From a virus: a stretch of 34,199 bases of DNA. The stretch spans positions 1 to 34,199 of IMG/VR virus record IMGVR_UViG_3300010396_000080; one strand, 5' to 3'. Position 1 is the stretch's first letter. Every line of letters starts with the position of its first letter. Of this stretch, positions 3,835 through 31,489 are shown in pieces. The notes beneath the pieces were generated by a model, which was not told the DNA's origin, searched no databases, and saw nothing but the letters and a program-made list of their open reading frames with translations. A program made the position numbers and the translations under genes.

Positions 3835-4061
3835 GGCGCGCGCGAGCGCTCATGGCCGCCATCTGGCGCGGGCTCGTGATCCGGTTCACTTGGATTCCGG
3901 TCCACCAGAAGTGCCCCTACTGCGGCCACTGGCGGGGCGGCATCGTGTTCGACCACGAGGACAAAAAGATCGTCCATCGCTGCCGGACGTGCCATGGCCT
4001 GTGGGCCGAAGAGCCGCTGACCAAGCTGTTGCCCGCGAGGACGCCGACCAAGAATGCCTGA
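3831..4061 (+). CDS. Small zinc-ribbon protein
   Basis: The GTG at 3831 overlaps the previous stop as GTGA and has AGCAGGAAG upstream; ATG 3852 would give a product 7 residues shorter. The protein has two Cys pairs, CPYCGHWRGG and CRTCHGLW, about 25 residues apart, the layout of a classical zinc ribbon. A short hydrophobic segment (MAAIWRGLVIRFTWIPV) comes before it. It overlaps the portal gene by 8 bases. It may bind DNA or another head protein, but nothing in the sequence proves this. Confidence 0.65.
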   Translation: MRRARALMAAIWRGLVIRFTWIPVHQKCPYCGHWRGGIVFDHEDKKIVHRCRTCHGLWAEEPLTKLLPARTPTKNA

Positions 4062-6300
4062 AGGCGGGACCAAAAAACCGTTCGATCCTGGGACCGTCGC
4101 GCTCGTGGCGAGCGGCCAGGCCGCCGTATGGCGGAACGCCGCCAGGAATTTCATCTCCGGCGTGGACGGTTCCTGGTTCTCGCCGCTCGAACCGCTGAAG
4201 CCGACCGCCCCGGACGGAACGCCCCCGCGGCTGCTCGACTACGAGATCGGGTACAACCTCCTGATCCAGCCCCGCGGGACGGGCCAGGAAGGGATAAGTT
4301 TCAGGGATTTGCGGGCGCTCGCGGACAGTTTCGGGCTCCTGCGGATGATCATCGAGACCCGCAAGGATCAGCTCTGCCGCATCCCGCTCGACTTCCGCGC
4401 GAAGGCGAAGCCGGGAGAGGCCCCGAGCGCGTTGCAGCGCCGGAGCGCCGATGATCCGGCGGTCGCGCGCGTCAGGAATTTCTTCGAGTTCCCGGACCGG
4501 GAGCACGATTTCGACACGTGGCTGCGGGAGCTGCTCGAAGACCTGTTTGTCCTCGATGCGCCCTCGATCCTGGTCAACCGGGACCGGGCCGGCAGGGTCT
4601 GCAGCCTCGAGGTGATTGACGGCGCGACGATCGTGCCGAAAATTGACGCCCAGGGGCGTCGCCCGCGGCCGCCCGATGTGGCGTTCCAGCAGGTCATCAA
4701 GGGGATCCCGTCAGTGGACCTGACGCGGGACCAGTTGATCTACAGGCCCCGAAACGTGCGGTCGCACCGCATCTACGGGTACGGGCCGGTCGAGCAGGCG
4801 GTCATGATGATCAACATCGGGCTGCGGCGCGAGCTGGGCCAGCTCGACTTCTTCACCGAGGGCACGATTCCGCTCGGACTCGCGCAGGTGCCCGACACCT
4901 GGACGGCGGACCAGATCAAGCAGTTCCAGACGTATTTCGACGCCCGCTACAGCGGCAACCAGCCCCAGCGGTCCAAGCTGATCTTCACGCCGAAGCTCGA
5001 AAAGCTGGACTTCCCGAAGCTCGCGGCCCCCAAGGATGAATTCGATGAATGGGTGGCCCGGATATTGTGCTTCTGCTTCTCGATTCCGCCGCTGCCATTC
5101 ATCCGCCAGATGAACCGCGCGACGGCCAAGACCTCGCAGGAAACCTCGCAGGACGAGGGGACGCTGGCGCTGCTGCGCTGGCTGAGGCCGCTCATCAACT
5201 TCCTGGTGCAGGTCGTGCTGGGCGAGACCGAGGTCGAGGCGGCATTCCAGACGGGCCGCAGCTCGGACCCGCTCAAGCAGGCCCAGATTGATGCGTCGGA
5301 TGTGGCGAACGGCATCATGGCCCCGAACGAGGTCCGCGCCGCGCGCGGCCTTGACCCGGTGCAGCACGGCGACCAGGTCGGGATCAAGACGGCGACCGGG
5401 TTCGTCCCCATCGGGGCGGCCCCGGCGCAGCCTCCAGCGCCGGACCATGACGGGGATCGGCCCGCTGCCGAGAAGGCCGCGGCGCTCGCTAAAAAAAAAG
5501 CCTTGACGGCGCGGCCTGATCTTGCGGCTGGATCGGCCCCGGATTCCATCGAGCGGATCGCGCGCGCCGTCCACCGGGCGTTCGGCAACTCGGCACCCGT
5601 CATCGCGGGCGACCTCGGGAGGATTCTCGGGACCGCCGCGAAAGCGGACGATGACCGCGACCGCAGGCTCGCGGACTTGCTGGCCTACATCGCGGGCCTC
5701 GATTTCAGCGACTGGCAGTACTTGGCGCAGCCGGTCGAGGATGCGCTGCTGGCGGAGGCCGACACCGCCGCGCGCGCCGGGGCCGGACTCGCGGGCGCGC
5801 AAGAGGGAGCCGCCGAGGCGGCGCGGCAGGATGCTGGCGATTACGCGCATGACCGCGCGGCCGCGATGGTGGGGATGAAGTTCGTTGACGGGGCGCTGGT
5901 CCAGAACCCGGATGCCCGGTGGGCCATCACCGATGCCACCCGCGCGGGCCTGCGGTCGCTTGTTGAGGAAGCGGTCGCGGAAGGATGGTCCGGCCAGCAG
6001 GTGCAGGAAGCGATTGAGGAATCGTATTGGCTAGGCCCGGACCGCGCGATGACGATTGCGCGGACGGAAGTGGCGGCGGCGCAGTCGGCGGGGACGCTCG
6101 CCGGGTGGCGGCGCTCAGGAGTTGTCGCGGCCACGAGATGGCTGCTCGCTCCGGGGCACGGTCGGCTGGATGAGTGCGACGGAAACGCCGCCGCGGGAGC
6201 GGTGCCGCTCGGCAAGAAGTTCCCGAGCGGGGACTACCACGTCCCCGCCCATCCGAATTGCGAATGCGCGCAGGTTGCGGTCCTGAAGGAGGCCCAATGA
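4054..6300 (+). CDS. Portal protein fused to MuF-like head morphogenesis domain
   Basis: The N-terminal ~470 residues are a phage portal protein, the dodecameric ring through which DNA enters the capsid. Typical segments are RDLRALADSFGLLRMIIETR, YRPRNVRSHRIYGYGPVEQA and IPPLPFIRQMNRATAKTS. After an Ala/Pro/Lys-rich linker, the C-terminal ~270 residues end in a Mu gpF/SPP1 gp7-like domain (PF04233), seen as AMTIARTEVAAAQSAG, then DECDGN and VPAHPNCECAQV. MuF proteins are normally separate minor head proteins encoded just after the portal, so at 748 residues this is a fusion. The linker is encoded over a run of nine A bases at 5491-5499. The stop overlaps the next start as ATGA. Confidence 0.92.
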   Translation: MPEGGTKKPFDPGTVALVASGQAAVWRNAARNFISGVDGSWFSPLEPLKPTAPDGTPPRLLDYEIGYNLLIQPRGTGQEGISFRDLRALADSFGLLRMIIETRKDQLCRIPLDFRAKAKPGEAPSALQRRSADDPAVARVRNFFEFPDREHDFDTWLRELLEDLFVLDAPSILVNRDRAGRVCSLEVIDGATIVPKIDAQGRRPRPPDVAFQQVIKGIPSVDLTRDQLIYRPRNVRSHRIYGYGPVEQAVMMINIGLRRELGQLDFFTEGTIPLGLAQVPDTWTADQIKQFQTYFDARYSGNQPQRSKLIFTPKLEKLDFPKLAAPKDEFDEWVARILCFCFSIPPLPFIRQMNRATAKTSQETSQDEGTLALLRWLRPLINFLVQVVLGETEVEAAFQTGRSSDPLKQAQIDASDVANGIMAPNEVRAARGLDPVQHGDQVGIKTATGFVPIGAAPAQPPAPDHDGDRPAAEKAAALAKKKALTARPDLAAGSAPDSIERIARAVHRAFGNSAPVIAGDLGRILGTAAKADDDRDRRLADLLAYIAGLDFSDWQYLAQPVEDALLAEADTAARAGAGLAGAQEGAAEAARQDAGDYAHDRAAAMVGMKFVDGALVQNPDARWAITDATRAGLRSLVEEAVAEGWSGQQVQEAIEESYWLGPDRAMTIARTEVAAAQSAGTLAGWRRSGVVAATRWLLAPGHGRLDECDGNAAAGAVPLGKKFPSGDYHVPAHPNCECAQVAVLKEAQ
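5491..5499 (+). other. A9 slippery run at portal/MuF junction
   Basis: Nine consecutive A bases are read as AAA AAA AAA inside the portal-MuF gene, in very GC-rich surroundings. Polymerase slippage or ribosome frameshifting here would stop almost at once: the +1 frame reaches TGA at 5504-5506 and the -1 frame reaches TGA at 5517-5519. Either shift would make a stand-alone portal of about 484-488 residues. Whether slippage occurs is inference. Confidence 0.4.
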
Positions 6301-26926: not shown

Positions 26927-27189
26927 GCGAGCACACCCCGCTGCCCATTGACCGCGCGCCATCGGGGCCGCGGCTCACGCCGCAAGAACTCGTTGACCTC
27001 AACCTTGCGCTGGCCCGCGCTCAGCTGGCCGAGAAAGACGCCGTGATCGCGCAGGCGCATGCGCGGGAGGCGGTGCGGGAGTTCGTCGCGCTTCGCGCTC
27101 AGATTTCGGAGGCGCACGGCGTCGCCCTGGGCTCGTCCCATCTGTGGGATCAGCGCACCGGCGAGATCCAGGAGGCGCGCGAGAGCTAA
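26923..27189 (+). CDS. Small coiled-coil protein (88 aa)
   Basis: GTG 26923 overlaps the previous stop and has GGGAGG 7 bases upstream. After a polar N-terminus the middle is a long amphipathic helix (LVDLNLALARAQLAEKDAV, then REAVREFVALRAQISEAHG), probably a coiled coil. There is no signal peptide or membrane segment. It lies just before the candidate lysin with a one-base gap. No function can be named. Confidence 0.6.
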   Translation: MSEHTPLPIDRAPSGPRLTPQELVDLNLALARAQLAEKDAVIAQAHAREAVREFVALRAQISEAHGVALGSSHLWDQRTGEIQEARES

Positions 27190-27190
27190 T

Positions 27191-27595
27191 ATGTGGCAAT
27201 ACTCTCAATCAACTGGCGACCTCTCGGATGCGAACGGCTTCATCGTAGCAACGTGCTACTCGGGCCACGGCGCGGGTGTCAACAATCCCGCGATGCAACA
27301 GTGCGCCGATGTCGGGCCGATCCCGCAAGGGCTGTACTCGCTGGGCGCGCCGGTCAACGATCCCGACAATCCCGCGAGCGCGAACGCGGAATTGGCGCAC
27401 CTCGGCCCGTTCGCCATCACGCTGATTCCGCACGACGGGAACCAGATGTTCGGCCGCTCCGGCTTCTACATCCACGGCGATGACATCCACGAGCTTGGCC
27501 AGCGCGCCGCATCGCTCGGCTGCATCGTGGCTCCCCCGGATGCGCGCCGCCAGCTATGGAACTCGACGGATCACGTGCTCAGCGTGATTCCGTGA
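27191..27595 (+). CDS. L,D-transpeptidase-like DUF2778 protein, candidate lysis enzyme
   Basis: This 134-residue protein resembles the DUF2778/Tlde1 family, whose members act on peptidoglycan as L,D-transpeptidase-related enzymes. Visible motifs are MWQYSQSTGDLS at the start, YSGHGAGVNNP, VGPIPQGLYSLG, then FYIHGDD (His95) and ASLGCIV (Cys111), the expected catalytic pair. There is no signal peptide, so a holin or other route would be needed to reach the wall. No classical lysozyme, amidase or chitinase was found in the window, and this gene lies at the end of the late operon, so it is the best endolysin candidate. ATG 27191 has GCGAGAG upstream. Confidence 0.7.
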   Translation: MWQYSQSTGDLSDANGFIVATCYSGHGAGVNNPAMQQCADVGPIPQGLYSLGAPVNDPDNPASANAELAHLGPFAITLIPHDGNQMFGRSGFYIHGDDIHELGQRAASLGCIVAPPDARRQLWNSTDHVLSVIP

Positions 27596-27602
27596 TGGGC
27601 GG

Positions 27603-28364
27603 CTACTGCTGCGCGAGTTGCAGCAGCAGCCCGTTGGCCGTGCCGTTCGCAATGATATAAAGGTATGGGCCGCTCACGCCCTTGGTCCGAAGTGCCAGCA
27701 CATCGACCGATGACGTGAACGCCGCTCCGGTCCCGGCCCCAATGCACTCGTTGAGATTCCCCGCCGATGGCGCGCCGTCAACAATGGTAACCGTGTAGAT
27801 CCCCGCCTGAGTAGTCTGCACCATGGAGCCGGAAATAGCGCAGTTTGTCCGCGTCGCCCCAGTAAAACTGCCGTCCACCGCCATCGTGATCTGGACTGGG
27901 CTTTCGTCCAAATCATTCTCGTTCCCGGCATAATCGCCAGAGTTCGGCGGCGCGGCCGAAACCGACGCCAGCGAGAACGTCGCAGAGCCTTGCGGGTCCG
28001 ACACGGTTCCAGCGATTGCGGTCGCGGGGCTTCCCGTCGCCGATCCTGAGATCGAGAAAACCGGCTCCGTCGCAGTCAGGCTTTGTCCGGGCGGTGCCAC
28101 GAGCCCCAATGTGCCGCTGACCGCGCCAGCCTGCGAGAACGTCGGCAGCGTCCAAAAGTCGGAAGAATCCGCGAAGATTCCAGCGCCGCCGTCAGGCACA
28201 TATCCAACCACAGCCGACGGCTGCCCTCCCATGATCGTGTACGTTCCAGCGAAAGCACCGGCGACGCGGACTTCCGTCGCGGCTGAATTGTCCGATAGCG
28301 GCGAGCCTCCGCACGATGCCGCGAAGACCGCAGCCAGCACCAGCGCGGGCGCGATAGCTCTCAT
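27603..28364 (-). CDS. Putative lipoprotein, leftward (moron-like)
   Basis: This gene runs opposite to the late genes, ending 8 bases from the stop of the convergent lysin candidate. ATG 28364 has AAGGGAGG 6 bases upstream; the earlier in-frame ATG at 28388 lacks such a site. The 253-residue product begins with a signal peptide and lipobox (VLAAVFAASCGG, Cys18), so it should be lipidated. The mature part is Ser/Gly/Thr/Ala-rich and beta-like (FAGTYTIMGGQPSAVVG) with one later Cys pair. No family is recognised. It lies downstream of an RHH regulator on the same strand, so it may be expressed from a lysogen, for example for surface change or superinfection exclusion. Confidence 0.7.
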   Translation of the reverse strand: MRAIAPALVLAAVFAASCGGSPLSDNSAATEVRVAGAFAGTYTIMGGQPSAVVGYVPDGGAGIFADSSDFWTLPTFSQAGAVSGTLGLVAPPGQSLTATEPVFSISGSATGSPATAIAGTVSDPQGSATFSLASVSAAPPNSGDYAGNENDLDESPVQITMAVDGSFTGATRTNCAISGSMVQTTQAGIYTVTIVDGAPSAGNLNECIGAGTGAAFTSSVDVLALRTKGVSGPYLYIIANGTANGLLLQLAQQ

Positions 28365-28407
28365 TGCGTGCCTCCCTTTCCCGGCCATCTGAGCAGCTTA
28401 CCTCTTT

Positions 28408-28593
28408 TCATCGCATCGTGCCCTTTTTTTGGTGGCTGCCTGCGCGCACGGCCTCCTTCATGGCTGAACGCACCCAATCCGAGAGGCTGTCGAATCCGGA
28501 CTGATGGGCAAGCGACTCCATCTGCGCCTTCTCCTCGGGGGAGACGCGGATAGCTATCTGCTTTGTTTTCTTTTTGTTCCAGTTCCTTCCCAT
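28408..28593 (-). CDS. Ribbon-helix-helix regulator, leftward
   Basis: This 61-residue protein has a typical ribbon-helix-helix (Arc/CopG-like) domain: the strand KQIAIRVSPEEKAQM, helix MESLAHQSG, then SLSDWVRSAMKEA. Dimers insert the strand pair in the DNA major groove. It is divergent from a second RHH gene with the matching pattern IAFRVTPAEK, so both may bind the operators between them. The lipoprotein gene follows 43 bases downstream in the same direction. Its start codon lies inside a word (GTCAGACATG) repeated near the other gene's start. Antitoxin is an alternative, but no toxin is seen nearby. Confidence 0.75.
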   Translation of the reverse strand: MGRNWNKKKTKQIAIRVSPEEKAQMESLAHQSGFDSLSDWVRSAMKEAVRAGSHQKKGTMR

Positions 28594-28682
28594 GTCTGAC
28601 TAGAGCCTACCAAAAAAAAGTTGGTTCGGAGTTCCTTTTTCGCTTGACATCGCGCTAGACATGCGTATACCGTATGTCTGAC
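28592..28682. promoter_or_regulatory. Divergent regulatory region with repeated operator words
   Basis: ATGTCTGAC occurs at 28592-28600 and again at 28674-28682. The half-site AGACAT at 28657-28662 faces ATGTCT at 28674-28679, forming an imperfect palindrome around the -10. Each repeat covers or touches one of the two divergent start codons. A bound RHH dimer could thus control both directions. The stretch of A bases near 28612-28619 may curve the DNA. Confidence 0.5.
28644..28671 (+). promoter_or_regulatory. Rightward sigma-70-like promoter
   Basis: A perfect -35 TTGACA at 28644-28649 is followed 16 bases later by TATACC at 28666-28671 as -10. It would drive the second RHH gene and probably the early operon. 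The start point would fall near 28676-28680, so the mRNA would be leaderless or have only a few bases before ATG 28683. The promoter lies inside the operator-like repeats. Confidence 0.6.
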
Positions 28683-28847
28683 ATGAGCACACCACATCAA
28701 TCAGTGCAGATCGCTTTTCGGGTCACTCCCGCCGAGAAACGCGAATTGGTGCGACTTGCCAGGCGGCGCGGCGAGACGCTTTCGGATTTTTGCCGGAATG
28801 CGGCCCGCGAAAAACTGGCGTCCGCTCCATCGCGCAAGGCGGCATAA
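28683..28847 (+). CDS. Ribbon-helix-helix regulator, rightward
   Basis: This 54-residue protein (57 if ATG 28674 is used) has the RHH pattern: strand SVQIAFRVTPAEKREL, helix VRLARRRGE, then TLSDFCRNAAREKL. It resembles the leftward regulator in strand (IAxRVxPxEK) and in the second helix start (SDxxRxA). I chose ATG 28683 because the promoter -10 ends at 28671, so transcripts would begin at or after 28674. It heads the early operon and overlaps the repeated operator word. It is likely to control itself and its divergent partner. Confidence 0.72.
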   Translation: MSTPHQSVQIAFRVTPAEKRELVRLARRRGETLSDFCRNAAREKLASAPSRKAA

Positions 28848-29504: not shown

Positions 29505-29809
29505 TGATCGAAGAACCAGAGCCAGAACCGCCCAGCGAATCCGTCGGCGAGCCGGAAGACAATCCCTGGTGGGGCACGCCCGAGTACGAGGCCTTGCACG
29601 ATGCGTGGAGGGAGCGGTACATGGCGCGCCTCATGCGCGATAGCGATGAGCGGCAGAAGCTCGTGGATGCGGCGATTGCGGATGGCATCTGGCAGCAGGT
29701 GGCCGAACGACTGGCCGATGATGCCGCGAGTGATGCCCGACTCGCGCACGTTCAGGCCGAGAGCATGCGGATTCTCCGCGCCGCAATGGAGGCTCCCGAT
29801 GGCCGATGA
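29504..29809 (+). CDS. Acidic hypothetical protein (101 aa)
   Basis: ATG 29504 overlaps the previous stop (TAATG); ATG 29486 and 29492 are in the same frame and possible. The N-terminus is acidic and Pro-rich (MIEEPEPEPPSESVGEPEDN). The rest is helical and charged (ALHDAWRERYMARLMRDSDE). Its end overlaps the RecE-like gene by 11 bases. No function is known; an accessory role to the recombination pair is possible only by position. Confidence 0.55.
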   Translation: MIEEPEPEPPSESVGEPEDNPWWGTPEYEALHDAWRERYMARLMRDSDERQKLVDAAIADGIWQQVAERLADDAASDARLAHVQAESMRILRAAMEAPDGR

Positions 29810-30749
29810 CTTGGGCGTGAGCCTTCAGGACATCGAAGACCTGCTCGAAAGTCGCGGTCTGCGAGACGGATTCGATGATCCTCCGGATCCCACGCCCGCA
29901 CCAGCGTCCCCGCTGGAGTTCGAGCCGCCCAAGATTGTCGAGGGGCTGGACGCCGAAACCTACCATGCCGACACCGGGAGCGTGGGCGCAGGGGGCCTTT
30001 CGCTGCTGCGCCGCTCTCCGCTCCACCACTGGCATGCTTGCCGCCGCCCAGGTCGCACGCCAGAAGCCCCAACGGATGCGCAGCGGTTCGGGACCGCCGT
30101 TCACTGCGCCCTGCTGGAGCCGGACCAATTCGATGCCCGCGTGGCATTCCGGCCCGATTGTGACCGGCGCACGAAAGAGGGCAAAGCTATATGCGCTGAA
30201 TTCTCGAAGAGCCTCGGCAACCGCCTTGAGTTGAACGCCGGCGCGCGTGACAAGATCGCGGAAATCGTCGCCGCCGTGGCATCGCACCCCGCCGCCGCAA
30301 TGCTGATGTCTGGCGATGGCCTCCGGGAAGCATCGGTTTACTGGACCGACAGCCTCACCGGCGTCCGGTGCCGTTGCCGCCCCGACTTCGCGCCCAGGGA
30401 CGGCGAACCACTGCTGGTGGATCTCAAATGCACGGTGGACGCATCGGATCGCGGCATCGGGCGCACGGCCAGCAACCTCGGCTGGCCGATGCGGGCCGCG
30501 TGGTATGTGGACGGCTGGAAGGCCGCGACGGGCGAGAAGCGCGAATACGTGTTCGCCTGCTGGGAGTCCGAGCCGCCCCATGCGTTCGCCGCCTACTTTG
30601 TCGAGGATGAGCTGCTGCAATACGGGCGCGCCCAATACTGCGCGCTGCTGCAACGCTACGCCAAATGCCTCGCGGAGGATTCGTGGCCGGGATACTTCGA
30701 GCAGGTCCAGCCGCTGATCATGCCCGCGTGGTTCAAGGGGGACAAATGA
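29799..30749 (+). CDS. RecE-like exonuclease (PD-(D/E)XK, DUF3799)
   Basis: This 316-residue protein looks like the C-terminal nuclease of RecE/exonuclease VIII, which degrades one strand of DNA ends to give 3' overhangs. Motifs are VGAGGLSLLRRSPLHHWHA near 62, GTAVHCALLEP with His102, EASVYW with Glu178, CRPDF with Asp196 and VDLKCT with Asp208 and Lys210. The first 45 residues are an acidic, Pro-rich extension. ATG 29799 has GGAGG upstream. It overlaps the RecT-like gene by 4 bases, the normal pairing of a phage recombination system. Confidence 0.82.
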   Translation: MADDLGVSLQDIEDLLESRGLRDGFDDPPDPTPAPASPLEFEPPKIVEGLDAETYHADTGSVGAGGLSLLRRSPLHHWHACRRPGRTPEAPTDAQRFGTAVHCALLEPDQFDARVAFRPDCDRRTKEGKAICAEFSKSLGNRLELNAGARDKIAEIVAAVASHPAAAMLMSGDGLREASVYWTDSLTGVRCRCRPDFAPRDGEPLLVDLKCTVDASDRGIGRTASNLGWPMRAAWYVDGWKAATGEKREYVFACWESEPPHAFAAYFVEDELLQYGRAQYCALLQRYAKCLAEDSWPGYFEQVQPLIMPAWFKGDK

Positions 30750-31489
30750 GCGAAGAATTGGAACGGCAAACCACCGTCGCGGCGGTCGCGGAGGCGAAGC
30801 GAAGCGGCCTGCTTGACGCGATGGCCGATCACTACGGCCTGAGTCGCAGCGTGCTGGCGGACACGCTCAAGAAAACCATCTTTCCGAGCGGCACAGCAAC
30901 GAACGAGCAATTGGCGGCGTTCTGCGCGGTGGCTCACCTCTACGACCTGAACCCGTTCCTGAAGGAAATTTATGCATACCCGGCGAAGGGCGGGGGCGTC
31001 GTCCCCATCGTCGGCGTGGATGGCTGGTACAAGCTCATCAACCGCCAAGCCGCGTTCGATGGCGTTGAAGTCGTGGAAGTGCGGGAGGCCGGCAACCTGG
31101 TCGCGTTCACCTGCACGATCTGGCGCAAGGACCGCTCCCATCCGCTGACGATAACCGAATACGTCGTGGAATGCCGCCGCCAAACAGACCCGTGGAGGCA
31201 GCAGCCAGTGCGAATGCTGCGCCACCGCGCCATCGCCCAATGCGCCCGCATCGCGTTTGGGTTCGGGGGCCTCTACGACGAATACGACGGCGCGATGGCA
31301 GCTGGCATTCGCGCGCCTGCGAGCCCGTCAATCGAGCGCCTCAACCGGCAAATCGCTGGCGCGCCAATACCGGCGCTGGAAGCCGCGCCGGTTGAAGTGG
31401 AGCTTGCCGCGAACCATCAGGATGCCGCGCCCCAATCGGAACTCGGCCAGTACAGCAGCGGCCTCGAACTCGACTTTGACCGCCCATAA
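30746..31489 (+). CDS. RecT/Bet-family ssDNA annealing protein
   Basis: This 247-residue protein belongs to the phage recombination proteins that anneal complementary strands. Motifs are YDLNPFLKEIYAYPAKGGG, VPIVGVDGWYKLINRQ, FTCTIWRKDRSHPLTITEY and MLRHRAIAQCARIAFGF, all typical of the RecT/Bet core. The C-terminal 60 residues are Ala/Pro-rich and end acidic, as in other annealing proteins that recruit host SSB. It is translated with the nuclease upstream (ATGA overlap, GGGGG site). The pair could serve replication, repair or recombination. Confidence 0.88.
   Translation: MSEELERQTTVAAVAEAKRSGLLDAMADHYGLSRSVLADTLKKTIFPSGTATNEQLAAFCAVAHLYDLNPFLKEIYAYPAKGGGVVPIVGVDGWYKLINRQAAFDGVEVVEVREAGNLVAFTCTIWRKDRSHPLTITEYVVECRRQTDPWRQQPVRMLRHRAIAQCARIAFGFGGLYDEYDGAMAAGIRAPASPSIERLNRQIAGAPIPALEAAPVEVELAANHQDAAPQSELGQYSSGLELDFDRP

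Follow-up and report, generated by a model that had tools for sequence, protein, structure and literature searches.

Two divergent NikA-like ribbon-helix-helix genes and a recurring half-site between the late and early genes of a viral contig

In phage lambda, the divergent HTH regulators cI and Cro border the early genes, and the rightward one is the first of the early series. A divergent pair of ribbon-helix-helix (RHH) proteins is known from the immI region of phage P22, in whose record a 90-bp gap separates the minus-strand gene mnt from the plus-strand gene arc; their promoters overlap, and over these both the 21-bp Arc operator and the 23-bp Mnt operator are placed; the exclusion gene sieA lies farther along the strand of mnt. 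Mnt represses both arc and ant; mnt in turn is repressed by Arc, which also moderates ant (PMC11016777; also PMC2629481). RHH proteins read DNA with a beta-strand in the major groove, where alternate residues contact bases, as exemplified by Lys18, Val20 and Arg22 of AmrZ (PMC3325190). For another RHH protein, RA3 plasmid MobC, autorepression via a palindrome in its own promoter has been proven (PMC4175270).

An earlier reading of the locus described here regarded two related RHH proteins at one control region as an unusual design. This claim needs correction because P22 immI, a close analogue of the present locus, already has paired divergent RHH repressors.

Gene order around the gap

The window, i.e. 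the whole stretch of DNA that was analysed, is a complete virus record of 34,199 bases (class linear, 65.8% GC) and is probably a fragment of the genome, hence incomplete. Its genes of interest are arranged as follows.

Rightward, upstream of the Tlde1-like gene: late block of terminase, MuF-type portal, head and tail genes
27059-27595: Tlde1/L,D-transpeptidase-like gene (PF10908, PHROG 24118), last of the late genes
27603..28388 (likely start 28364), minus strand: putative lipoprotein gene, behind A and read in the same direction, with a signal-peptide-like start and AASC
28408..28593, minus strand: gene A, RHH protein (NikA-like), 61 aa, PF21983 at 34.4 bits
28683..28847, plus strand: gene B, RHH protein, 54 aa (57 aa from the ATG at 28674), PF21983 at 32.7-32.9 bits
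28853..29140, plus strand: ORF C, 95 aa, the next frame after B
29799-30749, plus strand: exonuclease VIII-like gene (PHROG 412, E=2e-71; DUF3799)
30746-31489, plus strand: Bet annealing protein gene (PHROG 252, E=2e-56)

After position 27595, the putative lipoprotein gene (27603-28388) and the RHH gene A (28408-28593) form a leftward pair, and rightward from the same gap run B, C, three small ORFs, the exonuclease VIII-like gene, Bet and further small ORFs up to the contig end. The exonuclease VIII-like and Bet frames overlap, and both belong to the gene series headed by B. This gene order around the gap places the A/B pair between the late and early blocks, with B as the first early gene. 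The gap together with the 5' part of A is the lowest-GC stretch in the contig.

The putative lipoprotein gave no family above cut-off and no phage relative; from its position it is possibly co-transcribed with A, and a role in superinfection exclusion or conversion is conceivable. On the late side, the Tlde1/L,D-transpeptidase-like protein is possibly a lysis enzyme, and the product of 4054-6300 is a portal fused to a MuF-type head morphogenesis protein, whose nearest phage records are the Brevundimonas phages Strzyga and Polewnik (~40% identity). For ORF C, no phage relative and no family match, including any toxin family, was detected. A strand-helix-helix look by eye (TTLKLREEEHRVVLELVEREPLLSRAEAVIGVFIMGARIA) made C a candidate for a third RHH protein, which profile comparison, Pfam and Foldseek did not support.

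The two RHH proteins and their relatives

The original prediction of two small divergent RHH proteins with similar cores was borne out. Both ORFs are present, both exceed the 27-bit cut-off of the Pfam family PF21983 (NikA-like), which assigns them to the RHH superfamily by family model, and the cores align as IAIRVSPEEK with IAFRVTPAEK and SDWVRSA with SDFCRNA. By BLASTP, A and B share 40% identity over 45 aa (E=4e-10), a likeness about equal to that of P22 Mnt and Arc (48% over 40 residues). A profile built from A and B gave weak matches to NikA, ORF56 and a CopG regulator, all with solved structures. The AlphaFold model of A (pLDDT 71.7) consists of an extended segment followed by two helices, and Foldseek with this model returned mainly RHH proteins, no E-value being significant. 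Pfam Arc (PF03869), which both P22 proteins match strongly, has no match in A or B even at E up to 10. A also matches the YlcI/YnfO family just below threshold, and a search of the literature on that family found nothing of relevance to A.

Alignment with Arc and Mnt showed that A and B both carry Q, A and R at the positions equivalent to the RHH base contacts. Among eight other aligned RHH-like proteins, seven differ from this QxAxR pattern at one or both variable positions, and the sole protein matching it is the best plasmid match of B. The identity of the predicted contact triad suggests that A and B may read the same sites.

Neither pattern scans, run over viral as well as genome contigs, nor tblastn against phage records revealed close relatives of A or B. 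One viral contig (L012) holds a distant single RHH protein with no divergent RHH partner, and the plasmid matches to the RHH proteins are weak. With Bet, the terminase, a tail protein and the exonuclease as anchors, only distant phages were retrieved, in which the A/B pair was not seen. In record G005, the distant relative found by the tail protein, the early region encodes a single weakly RHH-like protein (L020:12111-12380; E ~0.001 with a three-sequence profile), again with no divergent RHH partner. No family match to an integrase (tyrosine or serine recombinase), a resolvase or an HTH_3 repressor was obtained in the contig, which is probably a fragment; an integrase as well as an HTH_3 protein is present in a distant relative.

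Half-sites, repeats and promoters in the gap

The intergenic gap measures 80 bp if B begins at the ATG at 28674 and 89 bp if it begins at 28683. The following elements were located in and around it.

28591..28612, minus strand: putative operator O1 at the start codon of A, ATGTCT at 28592-28597 inside a 21-nt direct repeat
28604..28612, minus strand: weak extended -10 candidate for A, TG-G-TAGGCT (TGGTAGGCT on the minus strand), with no good -35
28644..28673, plus strand: promoter-like sequence for B, TTGACA paired either with TATACC (spacer 16) or with TACCGT (spacer 18)
28645..28662, plus strand: putative operator O2 from half-site clustering, direct half-sites TGACAT and AGACAT, the first overlapping the -35
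28657..28679: candidate operator, an imperfect 23-bp inverted repeat with the -10 at its centre, AGACATGCG-TATAC-CGTATGTCT, 8/9 pairs
28674..28684, plus strand: putative operator O3, ATGTCTGACAT, an 11-bp inverted repeat at the predicted transcription start and start codon of B

Of the 13 copies of the half-site WGACAT in the 34.2 kb contig, five fall inside one 95-bp region at the gap, at 28592, 28645, 28657, 28674 and 28679, with no comparable cluster elsewhere in the contig. None of 5000 dinucleotide shuffles reached five WGACAT in the 95-bp region, and any 5-mer occurred five times in 6 of 5000 such shuffles. The longer repeat ATGTCTGAC begins at 28592 and at 28674; the first copy overlaps the ATG of A (28593-28591) and the second extends into the second ATG of B at 28683, confirming the earlier observation that two repeat copies each touch a start codon. 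Over 21 nt, the direct repeat is identical at 17 of 21 positions between 28592-28612 and 28674-28694, which none of 600 shuffles reached. A separate copy of the site accompanies each start codon, oriented alike relative to its gene. The palindrome ATGTCTGACAT, located at 28674, has no second exact copy in the contig, and O2 and O3 together fall within <45 bp.

A facing half-site around the -10 had also been proposed. The 23-bp inverted repeat that it forms is real, with eight of nine positions paired, but 43 of 600 shuffles (7%) reach it, so that it lies within chance when taken alone and is listed here as a candidate. No Rfam family was found in the window.

Promoters were scored with a rough sigma-70-like E. 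coli matrix. No placement anywhere in the contig scored higher than TTGACA (28644) with an 18-nt spacer and TACCGT on this matrix, which may not suit the host and its sigma factor. The originally described TTGACA-16-TATACC is indeed present in the gap and scored well too on the same rough matrix, and a strict consensus scan missed it and reported no promoter. If this promoter is used, transcription is predicted to begin near 28679-28681. Because the predicted start lies near 28680, the ATG at 28683 is the more likely start of B, whose mRNA would be nearly leaderless. On the minus strand, TGGTAGGCT gave the best score in the gap, yet a low one by the rough E. coli matrix; the 5' end of the A transcript is predicted near 28593, which would likewise leave it almost without a leader.

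Regulatory readings and known systems

The half-site cluster, the palindrome and the direct repeat coincide with promoter elements and with both start codons. Regarding the shared operators of the original prediction, this anatomy favours two RHH regulators on a common control region, from which we infer the further steps, namely that the proteins bind there and that both use the same sites. The explanation preferred here, with a rough probability of 0.55, is an Arc/Mnt-like or cI/Cro-like repressor pair that would use shared WGACAT sites to control both promoters and the early genes. A and B would bind the same half-site family in the 80-89 bp gap and thereby control both promoters. B, as the first early (recombination) gene, would limit the strong promoter that drives it and, with it, the downstream genes, comparable to Arc and Cro. 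A, made from a weak promoter, would occupy the sites from -35 to +1 of the B promoter and keep the early genes off, comparable to Mnt and cI, since half-sites on the -35 and over the start point would block that promoter; at O1, A would limit its own expression. Such an arrangement would entail mutual repression and may have a role in lysogeny. A stronger version, in which A and B compete for one set of half-sites as the main lysis/lysogeny switch in the style of cI/Cro, built from NikA-like RHH proteins and not confined to the secondary role of Mnt/Arc in P22, is doubtful.

The most serious rival is a simpler form than a mutual-repression pair, in which two separate autorepressors act with little cross-control and no switch, A on the transcription unit that it forms with the lipoprotein gene, B on the early genes, and in which the likeness of the half-sites stems from common ancestry. 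The separate copy of the site at each start codon, in the same orientation relative to its gene, fits this arrangement, as does the usual autorepression by small RHH proteins, e.g. RA3 MobC (PMC4175270). However, the identical contact triad and the common half-site make cross-binding likely, and O2 and O3 lie together in <45 bp; this rival is considered less likely than the preferred explanation. That the repeats are by-products of local duplication with no regulatory role is conceivable from the four B codons (ATG AGC ACA CCA) taken in by the 21-nt direct repeat and from the chance level of the -10 inverted repeat taken alone, but the half-sites at 28645 and 28657 lie outside the direct repeat and no similar cluster exists elsewhere in the contig, which renders this origin improbable.

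The Pfam name NikA-like and weak matches to MobA, MbpA and TraJ models would agree with A and B being relaxosome- or partition-type accessory factors of DNA processing, the repeats then serving as an origin or centromere-like site. Against such a role, which is quite improbable, no relaxase or partition gene was present among the proteins scanned, whether close to the pair or in other parts of the contig, and the sites coincide with promoter elements and start codons. Very little probability is given to one or both proteins being antitoxins, for instance B with ORF C as its toxin: sub-threshold weak matches to the TacA1 and RelB antitoxins and the 95-aa C directly 3' of B point in that direction, but C matches no toxin family, no toxin gene adjoins A, and both A and B are short, with little outside the RHH core for binding a toxin.

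The repressor pair preferred here can be set beside three described systems. Like the relaxosome proteins NikA and MobC, A and B fall in the same Pfam family or neighbouring ones; unlike RA3 MobC (176 aa), they are much shorter and lie in a phage early-region context in which no relaxase gene was found. Lambda cI/Cro resembles the locus in its divergent regulators at the early-gene border, in sites that here are seemingly shared, and in the rightward regulator heading the early series. It differs in that A and B are RHH and not HTH proteins, are far smaller and have no peptidase domain; the contig has no second operator cluster, and any part of the locus in lysogeny is hypothetical.

With P22 immI, the locus has in common related small RHH proteins, their divergent orientation, a gap of 80-90 bp that carries promoter and operator elements, and, read in the direction of the leftward repressor, a gene putatively of surface or exclusion type (sieA in P22, the lipoprotein gene here). 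In contrast to the distinct Arc and Mnt operators of P22, one half-site recurs here; recombination genes lie rightward of the pair, and the regulation is putative. A counterpart of the antirepressor gene ant was not found among the genes behind B, where C and the next small ORFs, which have no family match, are followed by the exonuclease and Bet. By analogy, the A/B locus may work like P22 immI, although its proteins do not belong to the Arc/Mnt family. Should A and B share their sites, they would form a two-repressor switch of very small size, ~440 bp with proteins of 54 and 61 residues, and the Mnt/Arc layout may have arisen twice, here out of a different RHH branch. The divergent RHH pair as such is known from P22 immI; what is different here is the other protein branch and the position at the head of the early genes.
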